Source: Verrucomicrobiota bacterium (GTDB lineage: Bacteria; Verrucomicrobiota; Verrucomicrobiia; Opitutales; Opitutaceae). Taken from it: 64,000 nt of DNA. Each line of letters starts with the position of its first letter. Within the stretch, counting starts at the first letter, position 1. Positions 17,507-32,693 of the stretch are shown here, in pieces. The notes under the pieces were generated by a model. The model made no database searches, was not told the origin of the DNA, and worked only from the letters and a program-made list of their open reading frames with translations. The DNA lies in NCBI GenBank assembly GCA_003641745.1, contig QNAI01000005.1, positions 1-64,000 on the forward strand, given 5' to 3'. Position numbers and translations under genes: made by a program.

Positions 17507-18616
17507 ATGGAAAAGAAAGGAAAGGCAGTCTTTTTTCTGGGTGTGGGCGAGCCGTTGGAGGAACGGGAATACCCGCTTCCGGAAGACTTGGAGCCCGGTG
17601 CGATCCTGGTAAAAACTAAAATCGCAACGGTGTGTGGATCGGATATGCACAGTTGGAGAGGGCGTCGGCCTTTTCCCACGCCTTCGATCCTGGGACATGA
17701 AGGTGTGGGCCTGGTGGAGCGAATGGGAGACGTGAACGCCACGGATGCAACGGGTAAGAAACTTTCTGTCGGTGACCGGATTACCTGGACGATAATGGCG
17801 GCGTGCGGCGAATGTGTTTTCTGCAAGGATTACGGGCTGCCGCAGAAATGCCTGAGTCTTTTCAAGTATGGGCACTCGGTCAGTGATGTTCCTCCCTATT
17901 TTCTCGGTACGTTCGGTGAGTATGTCTACCTGAAGCCGGGGACGGGGATCTTCAAGCTTCCTGACGACATGCCCGATGAAACCGCCTCTCCACTGATGTG
18001 CGCCGCGGCCACCATTGCTGGTGGATTTGACCGGATCGGAGTAAATTCCGGAGATACCGTGGTGATTCAGGGTGCCGGTATGCTTGGCATGTATGGGGCT
18101 GCGTTTGCCAAAGCTCTGGGAGCCGAGCAGGTGATCATGGTGGATATTCTTGATGCACGGTTGGAACTGGCAAAACGCTTTGGAGTCGATCATACCATCA
18201 ACGCAGAGAAGCTGGATTGCGACCAACAGGTCGAAGCCATTCGAGAACTGACCGGTGGTATGGGCGCGGACCTGCTGGTCGAGGTCACCGGCTTCGCCAA
18301 GGTGGTGGAAACAGGCATCAGGATGCTGCGCATAGGCGGCCGCTACTTGCTCCAGGGCGCGGTTTATCCGGATGATACTTTCACCCTCCAGTCGCACGAT
18401 GTCATCATCAAGTGTTTGACCTTGCTTGGGCGGCACAATTACGCCCCGATGGATCTCGGGATGGCGATCGACCTGGTTCATCAGAACCAGGGTAAGTTTC
18501 CATTCTTCGAATTGGCGGGGCCGCGTTTTCCGTTATCCGCGAAGGGAGTGACCGAGGCGATGATTGCCTTGGAGCGCAAAGAGGGTATCCGGCCGATCGT
18601 GGAGCCGCGTCCTTAG
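17507..18616 (+). CDS. Zinc-dependent medium-chain alcohol dehydrogenase
   Basis: The 369-residue MDR protein carries catalytic zinc ligands in ATVCGSDMHSW and GHEGVG, and an NAD(P) motif VIQGAGMLGM near residue 185. In the structural-zinc loop only CGECVFC and a later PQKC are visible, which matches a four-Cys lobe. It resembles the alcohol dehydrogenases found in phosphonate catabolism clusters (the HpnZ-proposed type), which fits the PhnX-like gene 3 kb downstream, but the substrate is not defined by sequence. It is the first gene of a plus-strand run continuing through the aldolase, HAD and transporter genes. Confidence 0.85.
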   Translation: MEKKGKAVFFLGVGEPLEEREYPLPEDLEPGAILVKTKIATVCGSDMHSWRGRRPFPTPSILGHEGVGLVERMGDVNATDATGKKLSVGDRITWTIMAACGECVFCKDYGLPQKCLSLFKYGHSVSDVPPYFLGTFGEYVYLKPGTGIFKLPDDMPDETASPLMCAAATIAGGFDRIGVNSGDTVVIQGAGMLGMYGAAFAKALGAEQVIMVDILDARLELAKRFGVDHTINAEKLDCDQQVEAIRELTGGMGADLLVEVTGFAKVVETGIRMLRIGGRYLLQGAVYPDDTFTLQSHDVIIKCLTLLGRHNYAPMDLGMAIDLVHQNQGKFPFFELAGPRFPLSAKGVTEAMIALERKEGIRPIVEPRP

Positions 18617-19533: not shown

Positions 19534-20288
19534 AAGCGTTAATTTTTGATTGTGACGGGGTGTTGGTCGACACTGAACGCGATGGGCATCGGGTCGCCTT
19601 CAATCGCGCGTTCTCCCAACAGGGATTGAAGGTGGAATGGAGCGTTGAGCTCTATGGTGACCTTCTGGCCATATCCGGGGGCAAGGAACGCATGCGGCAT
19701 TATTTCGAACGCCGGGGATGGCCGTCCGGGGTGGTGGAAGAGGGTCGCGATGCATTCATAAGGGAATTGCATGCACGGAAAACCGATCTTTTCATGCGCA
19801 TCATTGATTCAGGAGAACTGCCATTGCGCTCCGGAGTGGCTCGAATAGTCGATGAAGCCATCGGAGCCGGTGTTCAGTTGGCCGTCTGTTCCACCTCCAA
19901 CGAGAGGTCGGTAAACCTTATTGTGGAAAAATTACTCGGCCCGCATAGAACAGCGAACTTCAGCGAAATCCTGGCCGGCGATATTGTTCAACACAAGAAG
20001 CCTGACCCGGAAATCTACAATCTGGCGCGGGAGCGACTCGGTGTTTCAGCGCAGGATTGTGTGGTGGTCGAGGATAATCGAAACGGCTTGTTGGCCGCCA
20101 AAGCGGCGGGGATGACCTGTCTGGTGACCACCAGCGCCTATAGCGCGGAGGAAGATTTTTCCGAGGCGGACCACGTGGTGGCCGAATTGGGTGATCCACC
20201 GGACGCAATGCTAACCCTTTCCGAAATTGTTTGCTTGTCCCCGCCATGCTCGGGTCGAAAGGCGAATGGCACGGGAAACAATCAATAA
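19530..20288 (+). CDS. HAD hydrolase, CbbY/phosphoglycolate-phosphatase-like
   Basis: The GTG start at 19530 overlaps the aldolase stop by four bases (GTGA), which indicates translational coupling. Motif I is FDCDGVLVDTE with both aspartates, motif II is in CSTSNE, motif III is HKKPDPE and motif IV is VVEDNRNG, a subfamily IA pattern seen in CbbY, YieH and beta-phosphoglucomutase. It could dephosphorylate a product of the aldolase or act as a mutase. The last ~20 residues are low complexity and may be non-essential. Confidence 0.87.
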   Translation: MKALIFDCDGVLVDTERDGHRVAFNRAFSQQGLKVEWSVELYGDLLAISGGKERMRHYFERRGWPSGVVEEGRDAFIRELHARKTDLFMRIIDSGELPLRSGVARIVDEAIGAGVQLAVCSTSNERSVNLIVEKLLGPHRTANFSEILAGDIVQHKKPDPEIYNLARERLGVSAQDCVVVEDNRNGLLAAKAAGMTCLVTTSAYSAEEDFSEADHVVAELGDPPDAMLTLSEIVCLSPPCSGRKANGTGNNQ

Positions 20289-20295
20289 ATCTGGT

Positions 20296-21612
20296 ATGGC
20301 AAATAACACAACGAACATAGACAGCCGCTACAAGCGCTGGCGCATTACAATTTTCGGGATCACCTGGTTGGCGTATGTGGGCTTGTATTTTACCAGGAAG
20401 GCCTTTCCGGTTGCGAAAATAGGCATCCTTGAGGATCCCAGCATAGAAATCAGCAAGGCTTCCATGGGGCTGCTGGATGGGGCCTACGGAATTGCTTATT
20501 GCATCGGGCAATTTATCTGGGGCATGTGTGGCGACAGATTCGGATCCCGAGTCGTGGTAATGTCGGGCATGTTCGGTTCTGTGGTCATAGCGGTTGCCAT
20601 GGGGATGTCCTCCACCGTGATCCTTTTCGGGACACTGATGTTCTTGCAGGGCTTTTGCCAGGCGACGGGATGGGCGCCCTTGACCAAGAATGTCAGCCAG
20701 TGGTTCTCACGGCGGGAAAGAGGGCGGGTTTACGGATTCTGGGCGACCAATTATGCGATTGGCGGAATGCTGGCCAGTGCTTTTGCCGGCTATATGGCGC
20801 TGGTCTTCGGGAACTGGCGTTATGCCTTTTTCGCGTCGGCCGTTGTTTTGGGTCTCATCTGGTTGCTTTTCCTGCTTTTGCAGAGGAACCGTCCGCAGGA
20901 CGTGGGCCTTCCCGACATCGAAACCTATCATGGGGAGTCCAAGGATACCATCGCCACGGAGGACGGACCTGAAGATGAGCCGGAGGGCTCGTGGGAGACA
21001 ATCCGCAAGGTCTTTCGCAACCCCATGATCCTGCGCCTCGGCGCGATCTATTTTCTGCTGAAGCCCGCTCGTTACGCCATTCTCTTCTGGGGACCAGTCA
21101 TTGTATACGAACGGCTTGGAAGCAATATCGGGGAGAGCGCCCTGATCAGTGCCGTCTTTGAGGCGGCGGGACCGCTCGGCGTGATATTCGCCGGATATGC
21201 ATCGGACAGATGGTTTCGGGCGCGGAGGATTCCGGTGATTGTGATCAACCTGCTCATTTTATCTCTGATCCTGTTTTCATTCAGCACGGTCACCGCGGGG
21301 GGTGGCGTTGTCTCCATGGTGGTTATCCTGGCGGCCATCGGCTTTTTTCTCTTTGGCCCTGATGCGCTGATCAGCTCCACCGCCGCGGTTGATTTTGGAA
21401 CGCAGAAAGGAGCCGGATCGGCGGCGGGATTCATCAATGGGATGGGCTCGACCGGCCAGATTCTCGGCCTCTCCTTACCTGGTCTGATCTCAGAGCTTTA
21501 TGGCTGGGATGCTCTCTTTATGGGAATGGGATGCTTTGTCGCGCTGGCCGCTTTGATCCTTCTGCCCAAATGGAATGCCGTGCCCCAAGGCAGCGCAGGG
21601 AAGGCGAATTGA
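20296..21612 (+). CDS. Second GlpT-like MFS organophosphate transporter
   Basis: I start at the ATG at 20296 (MANNTTN); ATG 20266 and a TTG at 20227 are in frame but overlap the HAD gene. The 438-residue protein has about 12 membrane helices and an organophosphate-antiporter-like signature FCQATGWAPLTKNVSQWFS with RRERG following. The signature is more divergent than in the carrier at 12281-13600. The final helices contain GFINGMGSTGQ. It probably imports the substrate of the surrounding cluster, in exchange for phosphate. Confidence 0.87.
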   Translation: MANNTTNIDSRYKRWRITIFGITWLAYVGLYFTRKAFPVAKIGILEDPSIEISKASMGLLDGAYGIAYCIGQFIWGMCGDRFGSRVVVMSGMFGSVVIAVAMGMSSTVILFGTLMFLQGFCQATGWAPLTKNVSQWFSRRERGRVYGFWATNYAIGGMLASAFAGYMALVFGNWRYAFFASAVVLGLIWLLFLLLQRNRPQDVGLPDIETYHGESKDTIATEDGPEDEPEGSWETIRKVFRNPMILRLGAIYFLLKPARYAILFWGPVIVYERLGSNIGESALISAVFEAAGPLGVIFAGYASDRWFRARRIPVIVINLLILSLILFSFSTVTAGGGVVSMVVILAAIGFFLFGPDALISSTAAVDFGTQKGAGSAAGFINGMGSTGQILGLSLPGLISELYGWDALFMGMGCFVALAALILLPKWNAVPQGSAGKAN

Positions 21613-21671: not shown

Positions 21672-22400
21672 ATGAGCAAGATCCGCATGGTCATGTTTGA
21701 TCTCTCCGGAACAACAGTCTACGACGATACCGGGGTCCGGGATTGTCTCTACAAAGCGGCCGTGGAATTCGATCTGAAGACCACGCCGGATGAAATACTC
21801 CTGCACATGGGGACGAACAAGATCCATCTCTATCAGTTCCTCATCGCCCGTTCGCATGGACAGGACATCACGATCGAAGATTTCGAAAAAAACATCGATT
21901 CGGAAACGGAGGCGGAAGCAATCAGGATCTTCGACCGGTATTCGGAGATTATGATCGAACACTATCGCAAGGAAGTGCGCGAGATCGAGGGAGCTGCAGA
22001 CACCTTCCGGTGGTGTCACGAAAACGACATCAAGGTGGCCACCGACACCGGGTTTCACCGGAATGTCACCGAGGCGATCATGGATGGTTTGGGATGGGTG
22101 CGGGACGGATTGGTTGATCTTTCCGTCGATGTGGAGCACGTTCCCGGCGACCGCGGCCGACCGGCGCCCTTCATGATTTACCACGCCATGACACAGCTTG
22201 ACGTACAGTGCGTACACGAAGTGCTGAAAATCGGCGACACTCCCGCCGACATGCTGGAAGGATACAATGCCGGATGCCGCGGAATTGTCGGCGTCCTGAG
22301 CGGTCCTCGTCCGGTTGAAGCATGGGGCGGCTACCGGCACACCCACGTTATTCCCAGCGTCAAGGATCTTCCCGCATTGATTGAATCTCAATTCTCCTGA
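21672..22400 (+). CDS. Phosphonatase-like HAD hydrolase
   Basis: The start ATG 21672 follows an AAAGGA site. Motif I reads MFDLSGTTVYDD: as in PhnX, the second acidic residue of motif I is replaced (SGT). The cap has MGTNKIHLY, in which Lys50 sits where PhnX has the lysine that forms a Schiff base with phosphonoacetaldehyde (MGxxK context). Motifs III-IV are in LKIGDTPADM. This resembles the PhnX-like hydrolases that occur in phosphonate clusters and could hydrolyse a C-P bond adjacent to a carbonyl. The product of the canonical reaction would be acetaldehyde and phosphate. A phosphatase of a C-O-P substrate is the main alternative. Confidence 0.82.
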   Translation: MSKIRMVMFDLSGTTVYDDTGVRDCLYKAAVEFDLKTTPDEILLHMGTNKIHLYQFLIARSHGQDITIEDFEKNIDSETEAEAIRIFDRYSEIMIEHYRKEVREIEGAADTFRWCHENDIKVATDTGFHRNVTEAIMDGLGWVRDGLVDLSVDVEHVPGDRGRPAPFMIYHAMTQLDVQCVHEVLKIGDTPADMLEGYNAGCRGIVGVLSGPRPVEAWGGYRHTHVIPSVKDLPALIESQFS

Positions 22401-22450: not shown

Positions 22451-23431
22451 ATGGACAGATCTGCCAAAGTGTTGTTATGCGCCGCGGATGACGGCATCAT
22501 GGTCGATACCATTGATGCCGTGCTCACGGCGAACGGGTACGTTCCGAATCTGGTGATTGTGGCCGATAAGGATGATGTCCAGGCAATCGGACGCGAAATC
22601 GTCGATGCCGATATTGTCTATCCCAACAAAGCCTCGCTGACCAGGGAGTTGATTCAGAGCGCTTCGCGCCTGCAATTGATTCACTGCGGAACAGGGTGCG
22701 ATACGGTCGACCTGGAATCTGCCGGAGAACAGGGAATCCACGTCTGCAGCACCGCTCACATCATGGCTCAGTCGACGGCCGAACACACCGTTTTTCTCCT
22801 TCTGGCATTGGCAAAAAACGGGCTTCAATACCTCGAGGAGATGAAGGCGGGCAATTGGCATCGCAGGGTGGGGACCGAGTTGGCGGGCAAGGCTATCGGG
22901 ATCCTCGGTTACGGTCATATCGGCAAGATTACGGCCAGGATTGCCCATTCCATGGGCATGAAGGTGTTGGCCTCACGGAGGAACCTTGAAAAAGGCAACG
23001 AAGGAGGGGGCTTTGTTACCATGGTCGATCTGGATACGCTGTTGACGGAGGCGGATGTCGTTTCCCTGCACCTTCCTTTGGTCAGGTGCGGTCTCAACAG
23101 GACGGAAGCATTGATCGGAGATGAGGAATTATTGAAATTCGGTAAGAAGGGTCTGGGTTGGATCATCAACACTTCGCGTGGAGCCGTCATCAATGAAGGA
23201 GCCTTGGTTGAGGCGCTGGAAAACGGGACCCTCCGCAAGGCGGCTCTCGACGTGTTCGCGACCGAGCCTCTGCCTCCTGACCACCGTCTGCGAGCCTTGC
23301 CGAATGTGATCCTGAGCCCTCATGTTGCCGGTGAAACTGAAGACGCGTTGAAACGGAGGTATTCCCAGATAGCACTCAACGCCGTTCGCGTTCTACGGGG
23401 AGAACGACCCGAGTTTATCGTTGACCGGTGA
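22451..23431 (+). CDS. D-2-hydroxyacid dehydrogenase family protein
   Basis: The 326-residue protein has the family's NAD motif LGYGHIG, the catalytic Arg in NTSRGAVIN, the Glu in the FATEPLPPDH region and His in ILSPHVAGET. It reduces 2-oxoacids or oxidises D-2-hydroxyacids. It lies 50 bases after the phosphonatase-like gene and on the same strand. A phosphonate-like substrate such as a 2-hydroxy- or 3-phospho-acid is conceivable but not shown by sequence. Glyoxylate/hydroxypyruvate reductase activity is a plausible alternative. Confidence 0.87.
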   Translation: MDRSAKVLLCAADDGIMVDTIDAVLTANGYVPNLVIVADKDDVQAIGREIVDADIVYPNKASLTRELIQSASRLQLIHCGTGCDTVDLESAGEQGIHVCSTAHIMAQSTAEHTVFLLLALAKNGLQYLEEMKAGNWHRRVGTELAGKAIGILGYGHIGKITARIAHSMGMKVLASRRNLEKGNEGGGFVTMVDLDTLLTEADVVSLHLPLVRCGLNRTEALIGDEELLKFGKKGLGWIINTSRGAVINEGALVEALENGTLRKAALDVFATEPLPPDHRLRALPNVILSPHVAGETEDALKRRYSQIALNAVRVLRGERPEFIVDR

Positions 23432-26213: not shown

Positions 26214-26777
26214 ATGAACCTACTGGAACTTGCTCAGCGCATAAGATCCAAGCGTCTTCAGAAGAGGTTGACCCTGGCCCAACTGTCGAAAATGGCTGAT
26301 CAGACGGAAAGCTGGCTTTCGAAAGTGGAGAATTTCCGCCTTACTCCGTCCCTGACGGCTCTGTCCCGGATCGCCGAGGCACTGGGCACCACGGTATCTC
26401 AGCTCCTGGAAGGTCTCGACGAAAGACCCAAGCTGTCCATCATACGCAAGGAGGAGGGTGTGATTGTTGAACGTGACAGGCAGATTTCAGATATTACTTA
26501 TAGAAGCGTCGGTTTTAAGCGTCCCGATCGCGCGATGGATCCGTTTATTCTTACATTGTCGCCCGGTGGGGGCCGGGAGAAACCGCTCACCCATGAGGGC
26601 GAGGAATTTCTATTGGTCATTCGCGGTCGCGTAAAGTTCGAATACGGCGGAGAGGTTCATACCCTGAATACAGGGGACTCTCTATATTTTGACGCAGAGG
26701 TGGAACACCGCCTGGCCAACCCCTACAAAAGTGAAACCACGGTGCTCTGTGTCTTCGGCCACAGATTCGGGTGGTAA
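26214..26777 (+). CDS. XRE-cupin transcriptional regulator
   Basis: The 187-residue protein has an N-terminal helix-turn-helix (about 8-62: RLTLAQLSKMADQTESWLSK is the core) and a C-terminal cupin domain (about 105-185) with THEGEEFLLVIRG and DSLYFDAEVEHRL, the usual metal/ligand-binding motifs. Proteins of this class repress or activate catabolic genes in response to a small molecule bound in the cupin. It ends the plus-strand catabolic cluster and may regulate it. No strong ribosome site precedes it; the end of a dispersed repeat abuts the ATG. Confidence 0.87.
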   Translation: MNLLELAQRIRSKRLQKRLTLAQLSKMADQTESWLSKVENFRLTPSLTALSRIAEALGTTVSQLLEGLDERPKLSIIRKEEGVIVERDRQISDITYRSVGFKRPDRAMDPFILTLSPGGGREKPLTHEGEEFLLVIRGRVKFEYGGEVHTLNTGDSLYFDAEVEHRLANPYKSETTVLCVFGHRFGW

Positions 26778-26865: not shown

Positions 26866-28248
26866 TTAATCGACTACGCCCAAGGGACGTGAGTTCGCTT
26901 TGATATCCTTCTTGTGCTCAGCGACTGCCTCCCGGAGCTTCTTAACTATATCCGGGTAATCAAGAACCAGATTTCGCTGCTCACCGATATCATCCGCCAG
27001 GTTGAATAACTGCTCCCTTTGATGGAAAAGAAAGTCATCGGTATAATCAAAGTGAACATTGTTATAGTCCCTTCGATTACCTTCGAGGTGTAGCTTCCAT
27101 TCACCGATCCTGACGGCTTCGAAGCGTCCGAGTCGATAATAGTAGTACGCTTCGTGAGGCGAATTTTCGGTCTGCCCCGTAAGTAGTGGCCAGATGTTCT
27201 TCCCGTCGATCACGCGGTCTTCCGGCAGGTCAGCGCCAACCAAGCCGGCAATGGTTGGATACAAGTCCATGATCGTTGTCATCGCGTCATTGGTAACATT
27301 GGCGGGAATTTTCCCCGGCCACCTCATGATCGCGGGGACCCGGTGTCCGCCTTCCCAGGTCGTTCCTTTGCCTTCGCGAAGGGGTGTTGCCAGTCCGCCA
27401 TGCGCTCCCTTTTGAAGCCACGGTCCATTGTCGGAAAGAAATACGACCAGGGTGTCGTCAGCCAGCCCCAGTTCATCCAGGGTTTCAAGTATCCGGCCGG
27501 TGCTCCAGTCGATTTCCTCGACCACGTCGCCGTACAATCCGAAGTTCGACTTGCCCAGGAAATCGTCACTCGCATAAAGCGGGACGTGAGGCATGGTGTG
27601 AGCCAGATAGACGAAGAACGGTTTGTCCCTGTTTCCCTTGATGAATCGGACGGTTTCCTCGGTATAACGCCTGGTCAGCTGTGTCTGATCCGGTCCCCGT
27701 TCAATGACCTCCTCATTGCGCATGATCGGCATGGGCCCATAGGGGCCTTTGGCCGGTCGGGCGTTCGGCCCCATATCATTGCTGAAGGGAAGCCCGAAAT
27801 AATAGTCAAACCCCTGGTTCGTGGGCAGGAACGGCTTGCGGTGGCCCAAGTGCCACTTCCCGATGACCGCGGTCGTATAGCCCTTGCCCTTCAATAATTC
27901 AGCGATGGTTATTTCGTCCGGATTCAGGCCATCGGTTGAATCGGGCCAGAATACTTTCCTGATCCCCACCCGGTGTGCGTAACTGCCGGTCAAGAGTGCC
28001 GCCCGCGATGGTGAGCAGAAGTTCTCGGCGTAAAATTGGGTAAACTTCATCCCCTGGTTTGCCAGACGATCCAGCTCGGGCGTTTTGATTCGCGGAGCAC
28101 CGTAGGTACTCAGATCGGCCGATCCCAAATCGTCAGCCAGGATGATTACGATATTGGGCCTCTCAGGAGACGGACTTCCGGCGCTTGTTTGAGATCCGGT
28201 TGTAAACAACAGGGCAAGGATTAAGGTATAGAATGAGTTTTTTTTCAT
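26866..28248 (-). CDS. Exported type I sulfatase (formylglycine-dependent)
   Basis: The 460-residue protein has a signal peptide (about 1-23). ILADDLG (Asp39, Asp40) binds the metal, and Cys78-Ser-Pro-Ser-Arg82 is the C-x-P-x-R signature whose cysteine becomes formylglycine. GKWHLGH carries conserved Lys and His. The length and domain order match arylsulfatase-type enzymes of the alkaline-phosphatase superfamily. Secreted sulfatases desulfate polysaccharides and other esters; this one is isolated between two clusters, so the substrate is unknown. A phosphodiesterase activity cannot be excluded because members of this superfamily are promiscuous. Confidence 0.92.
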   Translation of the reverse strand: MKKNSFYTLILALLFTTGSQTSAGSPSPERPNIVIILADDLGSADLSTYGAPRIKTPELDRLANQGMKFTQFYAENFCSPSRAALLTGSYAHRVGIRKVFWPDSTDGLNPDEITIAELLKGKGYTTAVIGKWHLGHRKPFLPTNQGFDYYFGLPFSNDMGPNARPAKGPYGPMPIMRNEEVIERGPDQTQLTRRYTEETVRFIKGNRDKPFFVYLAHTMPHVPLYASDDFLGKSNFGLYGDVVEEIDWSTGRILETLDELGLADDTLVVFLSDNGPWLQKGAHGGLATPLREGKGTTWEGGHRVPAIMRWPGKIPANVTNDAMTTIMDLYPTIAGLVGADLPEDRVIDGKNIWPLLTGQTENSPHEAYYYYRLGRFEAVRIGEWKLHLEGNRRDYNNVHFDYTDDFLFHQREQLFNLADDIGEQRNLVLDYPDIVKKLREAVAEHKKDIKANSRPLGVVD

Positions 28249-28420: not shown

Positions 28421-29818
28421 TCAGTCGGGACCCCACTTCTTCAGGTAATCGGCAAAGAAGGTTTCCGTCGTTGGCACCTGTTCCGGAATCGGTGTCGATG
28501 CCCAAGTGTAGTTCAGGAAATGTCTCCAATCGATATTGTCAGAGGTCATGTTTCCCGCCCAGGTGCCGCAACCCAGACTGTCCGTGGTCGGAAGGCCGCT
28601 GCCCCAACCTCCGCTGTTGGCCGCGGTATGTCCCATATTGCAGACGACGCGGCCGACGTTTGCCTTGATGGCCAACTCCTCCTGCCGGTCTTCCATCATG
28701 CTGTGAAGCGATACCGAATGACCTTCACCGGAGAAGCGGTGCATTTCTTTCGTCCGTTCGATCATCTCGCTGAAATCGGTCCACTTCCACACGGTCATCA
28801 CCGGCGAGATTTTCTCACCTGAAAACCGGTCTTCGGGCCCCGGTTTAATTCCCAGCACCATGATGACCCGAGTTCCGTCCGGAACTGTGATCTTTGCGTT
28901 TTTCGCGATCGTGGTCGCCGGTTTTGCCACCACGTCACGATTCAAGTGTTTCCCGTCCGGCCAATAATACTTGCGCAATGTTTCTCTCTCTTCTTCCGTG
29001 CACAGATAGCAACCCTCCGCCTTAAGAGCTTCGAGCATGTCGTCGTAGATACACTCCTCAATTGCGATGGCATTTTCAGAAGAGCAGGAAGCTGCGTTAT
29101 TGGCTGTTTTTGACTTCACGATCTTCGCCGCCGTCGAGGCGAGGTCGACGACGGTCGAATCGACGATCGAGACGACGTTACCGGCGCCCACTGTATGGGC
29201 AGGCTTGCCCGCTTCGTAGACAACGCGGACCAAGGCGGCGCCCCCGGTGGCCACGGCGAAGTCGCAGCGAGACATCAACTCGCGCGTCTTTTCATGGCTG
29301 GTTTCCCGGATGCATTGCAGGAGGTCCTCGGGGGCTCCTATCTTTCGCAGCGCCCTTCGCCCATGCTCCACGGCCAGCCACGAACTACCCGGCGTTCGCG
29401 GATGAGGAGATACAATCATCGCGTTTCGAGTCTTCAGGGTGCTCAATCCGAGACAACAGATCGTCGACTCGGGATTTGTGCAGGGAACAACGTCGGCGAT
29501 AACGCCCATCGGTTTGGCGTAAACCTTGAGTCCCTTTTCCTTGTCCTCTCTCACCAGACCGCAGGTCCTGGCCCCTTGCTGGTCACGCAGGGTGCCGAGG
29601 GTCTTGGTCCAGATCTTGGCCACCTTATCCTCATAGACCCCGATACCACCCGATTCATCGACCGCCAATCGTGCCAGCTCTTTACGGGTTTCCTCTTTCT
29701 GCCACTGCCAGCCTGCCGCCAGCACCATTTCGTCAACTTTCTCCTGTGGCCAGAACTCGACTTCACGAAACGCCTGTCGGGCTCTTTGATACATTTCTTC
29801 AATATTGTCTTTCATCAA
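28421..29818 (-). CDS. CoA-acylating aldehyde dehydrogenase, SauS-like
   Basis: The 465-residue protein is an ALDH-fold enzyme of the acylating type. The nucleophile is probably Cys245 in NNAASCSSENAIAIEE, and VGAGNVVSIVD and FAVATGGAALVR fit the cofactor domain. Overall it resembles sulfoacetaldehyde and acetaldehyde dehydrogenases that produce acyl-CoA. It overlaps the preceding gene's stop by four bases (29815-29818), so it is translated with two citrate-synthase-like proteins and controlled by the RpiR gene. It would convert a small aldehyde, perhaps acetaldehyde or sulfoacetaldehyde, to its CoA thioester for the condensing enzymes. Confidence 0.82.
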   Translation of the reverse strand: MMKDNIEEMYQRARQAFREVEFWPQEKVDEMVLAAGWQWQKEETRKELARLAVDESGGIGVYEDKVAKIWTKTLGTLRDQQGARTCGLVREDKEKGLKVYAKPMGVIADVVPCTNPESTICCLGLSTLKTRNAMIVSPHPRTPGSSWLAVEHGRRALRKIGAPEDLLQCIRETSHEKTRELMSRCDFAVATGGAALVRVVYEAGKPAHTVGAGNVVSIVDSTVVDLASTAAKIVKSKTANNAASCSSENAIAIEECIYDDMLEALKAEGCYLCTEEERETLRKYYWPDGKHLNRDVVAKPATTIAKNAKITVPDGTRVIMVLGIKPGPEDRFSGEKISPVMTVWKWTDFSEMIERTKEMHRFSGEGHSVSLHSMMEDRQEELAIKANVGRVVCNMGHTAANSGGWGSGLPTTDSLGCGTWAGNMTSDNIDWRHFLNYTWASTPIPEQVPTTETFFADYLKKWGPD

Positions 29819-30846
29819 TGTTTGCTCCCGGTTTTCCTGGTTGGGTCTTCAATTTCTTCAACGATCGAGAACCCGCTGCCGAGGAGTTCCTTCCGTTTCT
29901 CAAGGGTTGTCCGCCACTCCTCGAAAGAGTGAACCTGGGCCGGAGCGGCCGTTTTCCTGCGATCCGCCAAAGGGGGCACCGGTCGATCTTCGGGCCCATC
30001 ATAAAACTCCTTCGGCGTAAGCGTCTCTCCCAGTCGAGTGAATTCTTCCCGTTCGATTTCTTCGATGAAATGAGCGCCTGCTCCGTATGATCGCGTGACT
30101 GCGATTATGGTCCACATCGCTTCCGGAGTGAACCCGAGATCCATCATGGCCGCTCCGGTTGCTCCAAGCAGGTCAAGATCGACCGGTCCCTCGTCGAGAG
30201 CCTGGGCGGCCTTGACGATTTCCTTCATGAAAGCGATATTCTCTCCGGCAATACCCAACTTTTCCGCTCGTGCGAAGAGGCGTTTGGCGGCCGGATCCTT
30301 CAACATCAGGTCCGAGTAACCAAGAGCCTCCCCGGTTTTCTGTTCCTTGACCAGAACCTCTGCCATCTCTGCTTTTGATTTTCCTTCCGCCTCTGCCCGG
30401 GCCAGGTAATCCGTGAGCATGGTTCCAAATGCGGCATAGGCGCCGTAGGCATGCCCGAATGCGAGGATCGCACTGCCGCAGGCCTGGGTCAGAAAGGTCT
30501 TCGAACGACCGACCAGACGTGACATCACGGCGGGCATGGACAGGCCATCTTCGAGGGAGAGAATCAGAATGTAATTCAACATCTTTTCTTCTTCCTGAGT
30601 CGGTATCCGTGCCTGAAAATCGATGAAAAGAATGTCCACCACACCGTATCCCTGCTCCACGAGTTCGGTTGTGTCGTAGCCCCGGGTCACGATTCGATGG
30701 ATGTTCTTGTAGGCGACCTCGGAAACCCACTGAAAGTGAGGGCGGTCGGGGTTGAGCGGCACCGTTCCGTGCTCGCGATTCATATAGTCATACGGCAATC
30801 GTGGGTCGGAAAGATTGCCGATCTCCTTGCGTTTTATATCACCCAT
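29815..30846 (-). CDS. Citrate-synthase-like protein A with altered active site
   Basis: The 343-residue protein belongs to the short citrate synthase/citryl-CoA lyase group. The first active-site histidine is kept (LAFGHAYGAY), and a candidate third residue is the Asp in MMDLGFTPEAMW. The second-histidine segment, normally G-F-G-H, reads GEALGYSDLMLKDPAAK and lacks the histidine. It overlaps the partner gene (30834-31760) by 13 bases and the aldehyde dehydrogenase by four. The degenerate segment suggests either a different chemistry or a structural role in a heteromer with protein B. Confidence 0.75.
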   Translation of the reverse strand: MGDIKRKEIGNLSDPRLPYDYMNREHGTVPLNPDRPHFQWVSEVAYKNIHRIVTRGYDTTELVEQGYGVVDILFIDFQARIPTQEEEKMLNYILILSLEDGLSMPAVMSRLVGRSKTFLTQACGSAILAFGHAYGAYAAFGTMLTDYLARAEAEGKSKAEMAEVLVKEQKTGEALGYSDLMLKDPAAKRLFARAEKLGIAGENIAFMKEIVKAAQALDEGPVDLDLLGATGAAMMDLGFTPEAMWTIIAVTRSYGAGAHFIEEIEREEFTRLGETLTPKEFYDGPEDRPVPPLADRRKTAAPAQVHSFEEWRTTLEKRKELLGSGFSIVEEIEDPTRKTGSKH

Positions 30847-31760
30847 TTCTTGAATTCTCCTGTTTCCTTCTGTTTCCTGGCATATTCCTGCCGCTCTTCC
30901 TGAGTCGGAACCGGCCTGTCATCCGGGCCGATATATTTGATCATGGAAAGGTCCAGCATCTGAGTCATCGGTTCGTTTCGTGAAGCCGCCCAGGCTCTCC
31001 CTTTCTTCATCGTGTAGACTGCGTGCGCGGCACAACTGTACCCTCGTACCACGCTGCCGATACACCAGGCGGCGTTGGGTGAAAAACCAATGTCGCAGAG
31101 CGCCGTGTTGCCGGCGCCGACGCAGTTCACCGGCACGTAGGAGCGCTTCTCCTTCTTCCGGCGCGCGTGAAAATGCTTCTCAATCGCCCGCTGGAGTTCG
31201 AGATAGACCCCGCTGATTTCCAACGTTTCCTGTTTCAGATGCGTGGGTTCCGCTCTGGGGTCGCCGTCACGGTGCTGCGGTTGGCCCATACCCATGACCG
31301 GGACACCGTTGTCCATGTACTCGTCAACCAGAATCTTGGCGATTTCGTCGATCGTTTTGCCCTCCTTGCGCGCTCGCTCCAGATACTTGTTCATCATGTA
31401 CCCGTGCGCCGCCCCGGGCCCGTGAGCGCTCCCAAACGTCATGACCGCCGCCGCCACCGCGGCCGGCAGGTTCGGTCGACCGGCCGTCACGGATATGGCC
31501 GATGCCGCCGAGGGCGACATCGAATGCTCCATGAACTCCCCCATCTCATATTTCAGCATCTTCTCCTCGGCTTCGGTCGGGATGCGTCCCTGAAACAGCA
31601 CATACATGGCATCACAGAGTGAATACCCTTCCTCCGCCAAATCACTCATGTTGTAGCCGCGGAGAACCGTTTTTTCGTCCGTCTTGTAGGAAACCGCGGT
31701 CTTCCGCTTCAACAGCGGTTCCCTGCCCGTCCTGGTTTGTTGCTCTCTTTTTTCGTTCAT
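30834..31760 (-). CDS. Citrate-synthase-like protein B
   Basis: The 308-residue homologue of protein A has TFGSAHGPGAAHG with the first histidine, a second-site segment GMGQPQHRDGDPR in which the usual His after GFG is Gln but QHR-x-x-DPR is kept, and CDIGFSPNAAW with the Asp. It starts 39 bases after the RpiR gene on the same strand and opens the structural part of the operon. Family enzymes condense or cleave oxaloacetate-type acids with acyl-CoA. The adjacent acylating dehydrogenase suggests an acyl-CoA derived from an aldehyde as co-substrate. Confidence 0.76.
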   Translation of the reverse strand: MNEKREQQTRTGREPLLKRKTAVSYKTDEKTVLRGYNMSDLAEEGYSLCDAMYVLFQGRIPTEAEEKMLKYEMGEFMEHSMSPSAASAISVTAGRPNLPAAVAAAVMTFGSAHGPGAAHGYMMNKYLERARKEGKTIDEIAKILVDEYMDNGVPVMGMGQPQHRDGDPRAEPTHLKQETLEISGVYLELQRAIEKHFHARRKKEKRSYVPVNCVGAGNTALCDIGFSPNAAWCIGSVVRGYSCAAHAVYTMKKGRAWAASRNEPMTQMLDLSMIKYIGPDDRPVPTQEERQEYARKQKETGEFKKWVI

Positions 31761-31799
31761 TTCATTCGTGTTCCGTTACGTTTTCGTTTCGATCCCGGG

Positions 31800-32693
31800 T
31801 CAGATTCGCCGGTCCGAGATTGCTTCAAAAGTTTTTTGTATAAGCTCATCCGCTTTCGGGCATATCCCGCAGATTTCGGCAAATAACAGATCCAGTACAA
31901 AGTCCCGAGGCACATTGGAAAAAATCTCGCAGGAGAAAGGGTCACGGTCCGAAACGCCGACCAGCGTTTCGTTCGCAACCTCTCCCAGGGGTGACTTGAT
32001 GAAACCGGTCAGCGCCACCACGGTCGCCTTTTCCCTCTTCGCGATTTGAGCGGCGTTGACCAGATCCTTGGTGGCTCCGGAAAAACTCATGCCGAAAAAA
32101 ACATCGCCCTTCTTCAGGGTGGCGGCGCGAATCGCCATCGGATACCCTTCGGTACAGGCCGCCGAATAGATCCCCACCCGGCTGAGGCGGTAGTTGAAAC
32201 CATGGGCCAGGGCGGCCGATCCGGCGATTCCCGCGACCAGCACGAATCGCGCGCGAACCATGGACGCGGCGATTTTCTTGAGGGCTTTTCGATCAAGCAG
32301 GTTGACCGTGTTGCGCAAGTCGGACCGCATTTTCTCGGTATGAGCCGATACCGAGTCGGGTTGCTCCGCCTTACCCGCCCGGCCCGCCGCCCCGAGTTCC
32401 TGGGCGAGAAGGACCTTGAAGTCCTGAAATCCCGCACATCCCATTTTCTGACAGAACCGAATGATCGTCCCGTAGCCCAGGGAACTGGTCTGCGCGACCT
32501 CGGTAATAGAAAGGTAGGCGGCTTCGGGATTTCCCAGAAAATACTCACCTGCCTTCTTCTCAGCCGCGGTCAGTGCGTTCTTCAGGATACTCAGGCGCAG
32601 GGGATACGAACATCCCTGCAGAGAAGACTCCGGATGTCCCGAATCCGGTGCCTTACGCTTTCCGTTTCTTGCCGCCTGGGTGTGCTGAGCCAT
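31800..32693 (-). CDS. RpiR/MurR-family regulator with SIS domain
   Basis: The 297-residue protein has an N-terminal helix-turn-helix (about 35-100: LTAAEKKAGEYFL and ITEVAQTSSLGYGTIIRFC) and a C-terminal SIS domain (about 145-285; VLVAGIAGSAALAHG and FGMSFSGATKDLVNA). SIS domains bind phosphosugars or similar ligands. It is the first gene of the operon with the two citrate-synthase-like genes and the aldehyde dehydrogenase. A three-half-site palindrome at 32745-32786, 52 bases before its start, is the likely autoregulatory operator. Confidence 0.9.
   Translation of the reverse strand: MAQHTQAARNGKRKAPDSGHPESSLQGCSYPLRLSILKNALTAAEKKAGEYFLGNPEAAYLSITEVAQTSSLGYGTIIRFCQKMGCAGFQDFKVLLAQELGAAGRAGKAEQPDSVSAHTEKMRSDLRNTVNLLDRKALKKIAASMVRARFVLVAGIAGSAALAHGFNYRLSRVGIYSAACTEGYPMAIRAATLKKGDVFFGMSFSGATKDLVNAAQIAKREKATVVALTGFIKSPLGEVANETLVGVSDRDPFSCEIFSNVPRDFVLDLLFAEICGICPKADELIQKTFEAISDRRI

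Follow-up and report, generated by a model that had tools for sequence, protein, structure and literature searches.

A conserved pair of citryl-CoA-lyase-like proteins with an acylating aldehyde dehydrogenase: a candidate third hydrolytic branch of phosphonate catabolism

The operon and its conservation

The window, i.e., the whole 64,000-nucleotide stretch of Verrucomicrobiota DNA analyzed here, contains a tight operon of three genes behind an RpiR regulator, with all four genes on the minus strand. The regulator (31800..32693) exceeds the Pfam cut-offs for both HTH_6 and SIS domains, in agreement with its initial reading as an RpiR-type control gene, and RpiR homologues also lie 5' of B in L010, L011 and L016, among other loci. 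It is followed by gene B (30834..31760), which encodes a citryl-CoA-lyase-like protein of 308 amino acids and the proposed catalytic subunit, by gene A (29815..30846), which encodes a degenerate citryl-CoA-lyase-like partner of 343 amino acids, and by gene S (28421..29818), a CoA-acylating aldehyde dehydrogenase that we propose to be a phosphonoacetaldehyde dehydrogenase (acylating). The reading frames of B and A share 13 bases (30834-30846), as stated in a preliminary description of this DNA. The four-base overlap of A and S given there holds if S starts at TTG 29818; a start at the next codon, ATG 29815, creates a TGATG junction and reduces the overlap to one base. Directly after S lies a sulfatase-family gene (26866-28248) that carries a CSPSR formylglycine-type motif and has a possible role as a phosphonate or phosphate ester hydrolase.

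Searching B against the genomes of 84,980 species returned 91 relatives, and the best 80 of these 91, at 68-87% identity, belong to Verrucomicrobiota, Chloroflexota, Desulfobacterota, Planctomycetota, Spirochaetota, and other phyla. The module is found in many, mostly uncultured, bacteria. In all 77 independent loci that extend far enough, gene A lies 3' of B in the same orientation, which excludes chance as the cause of the pairing, and in 44 of these loci the matched ends overlap. Of 46 loci long enough to include S, 44 have it downstream within 4 kb. A search of plasmids recovered only distant citryl-CoA lyases, all with less than 60% identity. In one genome (G239) of the order control described below, B is present twice, on separate contigs (C336 and C438).

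Family membership and active sites

The initial view that A and B are citrate-synthase-like is borne out by Pfam Citrate_synt matches of 39.9 bits for A and 66.4 bits for B (cut-off 27). The top Foldseek match for both structure models is the citryl-CoA lyase of Hydrogenobacter thermophilus (PDB 6hxp, PRK06224), with which A and B have fold and ancestry in common. Confidence in these models is modest (pLDDT 66 and 70), their motifs are poorly placed, and they are too weak around the motifs for a substrate to be positioned. In contrast to 6hxp, A and B are encoded by two genes and score well under every cut-off of its family: A reaches at most 99.8 bits and B at most 118.6 bits, compared with 193-409 for the NCBIfam PRK06224 models and 212 for the NCBIfam citryl-CoA lyase model. 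Given these scores and the loss of catalytic residues, the assignment as ordinary citryl-CoA lyase was rejected.

Catalytic positions were compared by aligning A and B with 6hxp, five citryl-CoA lyases encoded by a single gene, and the citrate synthase of the window's genome, using the numbering of pig citrate synthase, for which we take the relevant residues to be His274, His320, Asp375, Arg329, and Arg401. The His274 position is occupied by H113 in B and Y134 in A, the His320 position by Q160 in B and a residue other than histidine in A, and the position of the acid base Asp375 by V214 in B and L227 in A. Arg329 corresponds to R169 in B and is missing in A, while Arg401 corresponds to R239 in B and R252 in A. 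From the two histidines and the aspartate base of citrate synthase, B has therefore kept only the first histidine and A neither, with the aspartate replaced in both. B resembles 6hxp in having kept this histidine and the acyl-CoA-site arginines; the second histidine and the aspartate base of 6hxp are gone in A as well as in B. An altered second-histidine segment in both proteins had already been noted, and we recovered it as GMGQPQHRDGDPR in B and as a segment without histidine in A. Over 52 sequences, alignment columns are on average 79% identical in B and 71% identical in A, and H113, Q160-P-Q-H163, D167-P-R169, and R239 of B are invariant. Neither protein has an evident nucleophile or metal site. 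The sequences support the view that A and B constitute a conserved pair distinct from ordinary citryl-CoA lyases.

The best NCBIfam match of S, and the closest named model over its full length, is the acylating sulfoacetaldehyde dehydrogenase SauS (NF047625), with 467.6 bits and thus below the equivalog cut-off of 600; the acylating domain model of AdhE matches with 345.6 bits. The catalytic cysteine is kept as C245, which lies in an SCSS segment and is itself invariant in 20 sequences. The earlier likening of S to SauS hence stands as to the closest model and fails as to the cut-off. S probably catalyzes the same type of reaction on a similar aldehyde, yet its neighbours are phosphonate and not sulfonate genes. 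Because of these neighbours, phosphonoacetaldehyde, the third aldehyde on the assay list of the preliminary description, is the likely substrate of S.

Phosphonate genes around the module

Flanking genes of the B loci were clustered and then scored against curated models. Neighbours above cut-off include the aminoethylphosphonate aminotransferase PhnW (412.8 bits, cut-off 360.8), the hydroxy-aminoethylphosphonate ammonia-lyase PbfA (717.6 bits, cut-off 525), PhnA (521.6 bits, cut-off 407.6), and the 2-aminoethylphosphonate transporter PhnT2 (522.8 bits, cut-off 457.7), while PhnD and the HpnZ alcohol dehydrogenase score close to cut-off. By tblastn over the best 80 loci, a HAD hydrolase was matched in 43, PhnW in 39, PbfA in 21, and HpnZ in 16, the weakest of these matches being partly distant. 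The commonest named family among the remaining neighbour genes (8 of 109) is TIGR03340, 'phosphonate utilization associated putative membrane protein'. PhnA adjoins the module in L012, L019, and L020, and in L012 B is directly preceded by HpnZ, an HTH-cupin gene, and PhnA. Looking up the gene pair and its neighbours in other genomes, as the preliminary description had suggested, revealed a conserved pair in a phosphonate context.

Further genes recur at some loci. MtmB-like methylamine methyltransferase genes adjoin the module in L034 (6400-9191) and L022 (7148-9949), with Pfam MtmB detected in four neighbour proteins, and might serve the demethylation of N-methyl-aminoethylphosphonate in anaerobes. 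A PhnA-like gene of the alkaline phosphatase superfamily is located directly 3' of the HAD gene in L056 (14906-15907), L064 (8781-9098), L071 (16793-17794), and L072 (11121-12122); in the whole-genome search it scored 200-222 bits, under the PhnA cut-off. At loci of gut Spirochaetes, B has a divergent, full-length citrate synthase gene as its neighbour (L081, 8418-9764; L083, 8397-9734).

The association with PhnW extends to whole genomes, as PhnW is above cut-off in 38 of 50 genomes with B and in none of 14 control genomes. PhnX was not found above cut-off in any of these 50 genomes, PhnY in only one, and PhnA in only six, so that most genomes lack the enzymes that usually come next, with the reservation that many of these genomes are incomplete metagenome bins and absences are soft. 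PhnA was accordingly rejected as the general next step. As an additional control, we drew 146 genomes of one order (centre G121) without selection; B is present in 15 of them at a minimum of 75% identity. PhnW is present in 13 of the 15 genomes with B compared with 13 of the 131 without (p=7e-10), and among the PhnW genomes PhnX is present in none of 13 with B compared with 6 of 13 without (p=0.015); these genomes are mutually related, and all p-values from this draw overstate independence.

In the window, phosphonate-like genes lie 2-11 kb from the module on the opposite strand. They comprise a zinc alcohol dehydrogenase of the HpnZ-type, 'phosphonate catabolism associated' family (17507..18616; TIGR03366, 302.4 bits, cut-off 328.1), of which members also occur beside B in other loci; a GlpT/PgtP-like MFS transporter (20227..21612), one of the GlpT-like transporters at this site, whose orthologue in the near relative G095 (84% identity) is next to PhnW at L099; and a phosphonatase-like HAD hydrolase with the motif DLSGT (21672..22400; TIGR01422, 109.8 bits, under the cut-off of 220), whose relative in L022 matches the PhnX-like model TIGR03351 with 170 bits (cut-off 218.9). 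A D-2-hydroxyacid dehydrogenase family protein (22451..23431) has NCBIfam matches under cut-off, and its cluster recurs in the relative G095 (L100); the HAEP racemase PbfF is of the same protein family (PMC12366243), a likeness by family alone. An HTH-cupin regulator (26214..26777) has its relative two genes upstream of B, beside PhnA, in L012. All five genes are on the plus strand. Neither PhnW above cut-off (best score 160.6 bits) nor PhnA occurs in the window's own genome, which is 83% complete, and the HAD hydrolase found downstream of the module elsewhere has no orthologue there. Lacking a recognised PhnW and this HAD, the window copy is connected to phosphonates by association, via weaker neighbours and close relatives, and less directly than the family as a whole.

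A possible route through phosphonoacetyl-CoA and its alternatives

In the known pathways PhnWX and PhnWAY, PhnX and PhnY are the only named next steps after phosphonoacetaldehyde (PMC10574752). The module has in common with these pathways the entry enzymes PhnW and PbfA, the transporters, and the intermediate phosphonoacetaldehyde, but an acylating dehydrogenase and a citryl-CoA-lyase-like pair take the place of PhnX and PhnY. With these two enzymes mostly absent and an acylating dehydrogenase present instead, phosphonoacetyl-CoA is the expected product, and we consider conversion of phosphonoacetaldehyde via phosphonoacetyl-CoA to acetyl-CoA and phosphate to be probable. Our best explanation, for and against which we see the case as evenly poised, is that A, B, and S form a third hydrolytic branch of phosphonate catabolism beside PhnWX and PhnWAY, with A/B breaking the C-P bond.

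Briefly, phosphonoacetaldehyde would be supplied by PhnW acting on 2-aminoethylphosphonate, by PbfA acting on (R)-1-hydroxy-2-aminoethylphosphonate, or possibly by an HpnZ-type dehydrogenase acting on hydroxyethylphosphonate. S would then oxidise it to phosphonoacetyl-CoA, using NAD and CoA. This thioester would be held by A/B, putatively a complex, in the way that citryl-CoA lyase holds citryl-CoA, with His113 of B stabilising the thioester enolate and Arg169 and Arg239 of B binding the phosphonate; in citrate synthase, the counterparts of these arginines bind the carboxylates of oxaloacetate. The C-P bond would be broken with the acetyl-CoA enolate as leaving group, releasing acetyl-CoA and phosphate, and the HAD hydrolase might accept the phosphoryl group or clear a phosphorylated product. 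Such a cleavage involves no removal of an alpha-proton and needs no base, in keeping with the absence of the aspartate from A and B. A neighbouring carbonyl or carboxyl group is known to make the C-P bond hydrolysable (PMC10574752). That A/B acts as a C-P bond breaker on a citrate synthase fold, with the CoA thioester as electron sink, is a tentative proposal that we hold with slightly more doubt than conviction.

The co-occurring HAD hydrolase could itself, instead of A/B, be the C-P breaker of the same pathway, acting on phosphonoacetyl-CoA or on the product of A/B, a reading that we regard as unlikely and yet as a serious competitor. It is present in 42 of 50 genomes with B and, in the order control, in 13 of 15 genomes with B compared with 3 of 131 without (p=4e-14). 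In one of these three exceptions (G219), PhnW is located right at a contig end, HAD lies downstream, and B may simply be cut off. HAD also accompanies B in the single-contig genomes G120 and G122, where the two genes are not linked. Its first motif reads DFGQT in 30, DFVQT in 7, DFDQT in 3, and DFYQT in 1 of 41 sequences, i.e., the second, general-acid aspartate is absent in 38, as we take it to be in the phosphonatase PhnX, another HAD-family enzyme. By score, however, it is not PhnX, its best NCBIfam matches being TIGR02253 and TIGR02254, other HAD families and both under cut-off. Its identity of about 40-58% is below the conservation of B and A, and it was not found in the window genome, its relatives G095 and G097, or G098, G101, G107, G128, and G137, despite the presence of B and A. 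In this reading, A/B would perform another acyl-CoA step, e.g., rearrangement of the phosphonate to an enol phosphate or presentation of the enolate to HAD; direct cleavage of phosphonoacetyl-CoA by HAD would leave A/B without a role.

Condensation of phosphonoacetyl-CoA with an oxo acid by A/B, yielding a phosphonate analogue of citrate for other enzymes, would suit the citrate synthase fold and ancestry and the citrate synthase gene beside B in the Spirochaete loci. We consider it improbable, as the base and second histidine for the Claisen step are gone in both subunits and the neighbourhood showed no conserved enzyme downstream that would process such a product. The unusual acid and acyl-CoA chemistry of the preliminary description is in this respect retained in part: an aldehyde-derived acyl-CoA, made by S, is likely, while condensation with a second acid has homology as its sole support. 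PhnA beside the module in a few loci would fit a further alternative to C-P cleavage by A/B, in which A/B frees phosphonoacetate from phosphonoacetyl-CoA as a thioesterase or by CoA transfer and PhnA completes the breakdown; its rarity in B genomes, and a detour without gain over PhnY, make this very improbable. Most remote is an action of the module on sulfoacetaldehyde, in line with SauS as the best match of S. Xsc, an enzyme of sulfonate metabolism, exceeds its cut-off in 12 of 50 genomes with B, never on B's contig, which led us to dismiss sulfoacetate metabolism, the link first drawn from S; the score of S under the SauS cut-off and the identified phosphonate neighbours point the same way.

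The searched papers, among which subscription journals are mostly not included, describe neither a catabolic route via phosphonoacetyl-CoA nor one that combines a citrate synthase with aminoethylphosphonate, and their sole mention of phosphonoacetyl-CoA concerns phosphonate biosynthesis. If C-P cleavage by A/B is correct, the pair would join PhnX, PhnA, and PalA as a fourth kind of phosphonate hydrolase, and the route would yield phosphate and, unlike PhnX or PhnA, acetyl-CoA directly and without ATP cost. It would explain genomes with PhnW but without PhnX or PhnY, which are seemingly unable to complete the breakdown of aminoethylphosphonate, and surveys of phosphonate genes that count known hydrolases only would overlook the module. 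Desulfobacterota, Chloroflexota, Spirochaetota, Planctomycetota, and Verrucomicrobiota, with many of the hosts from sediments, animal guts, and other often anoxic settings, would then possess an unrecognised route for breaking the C-P bond.
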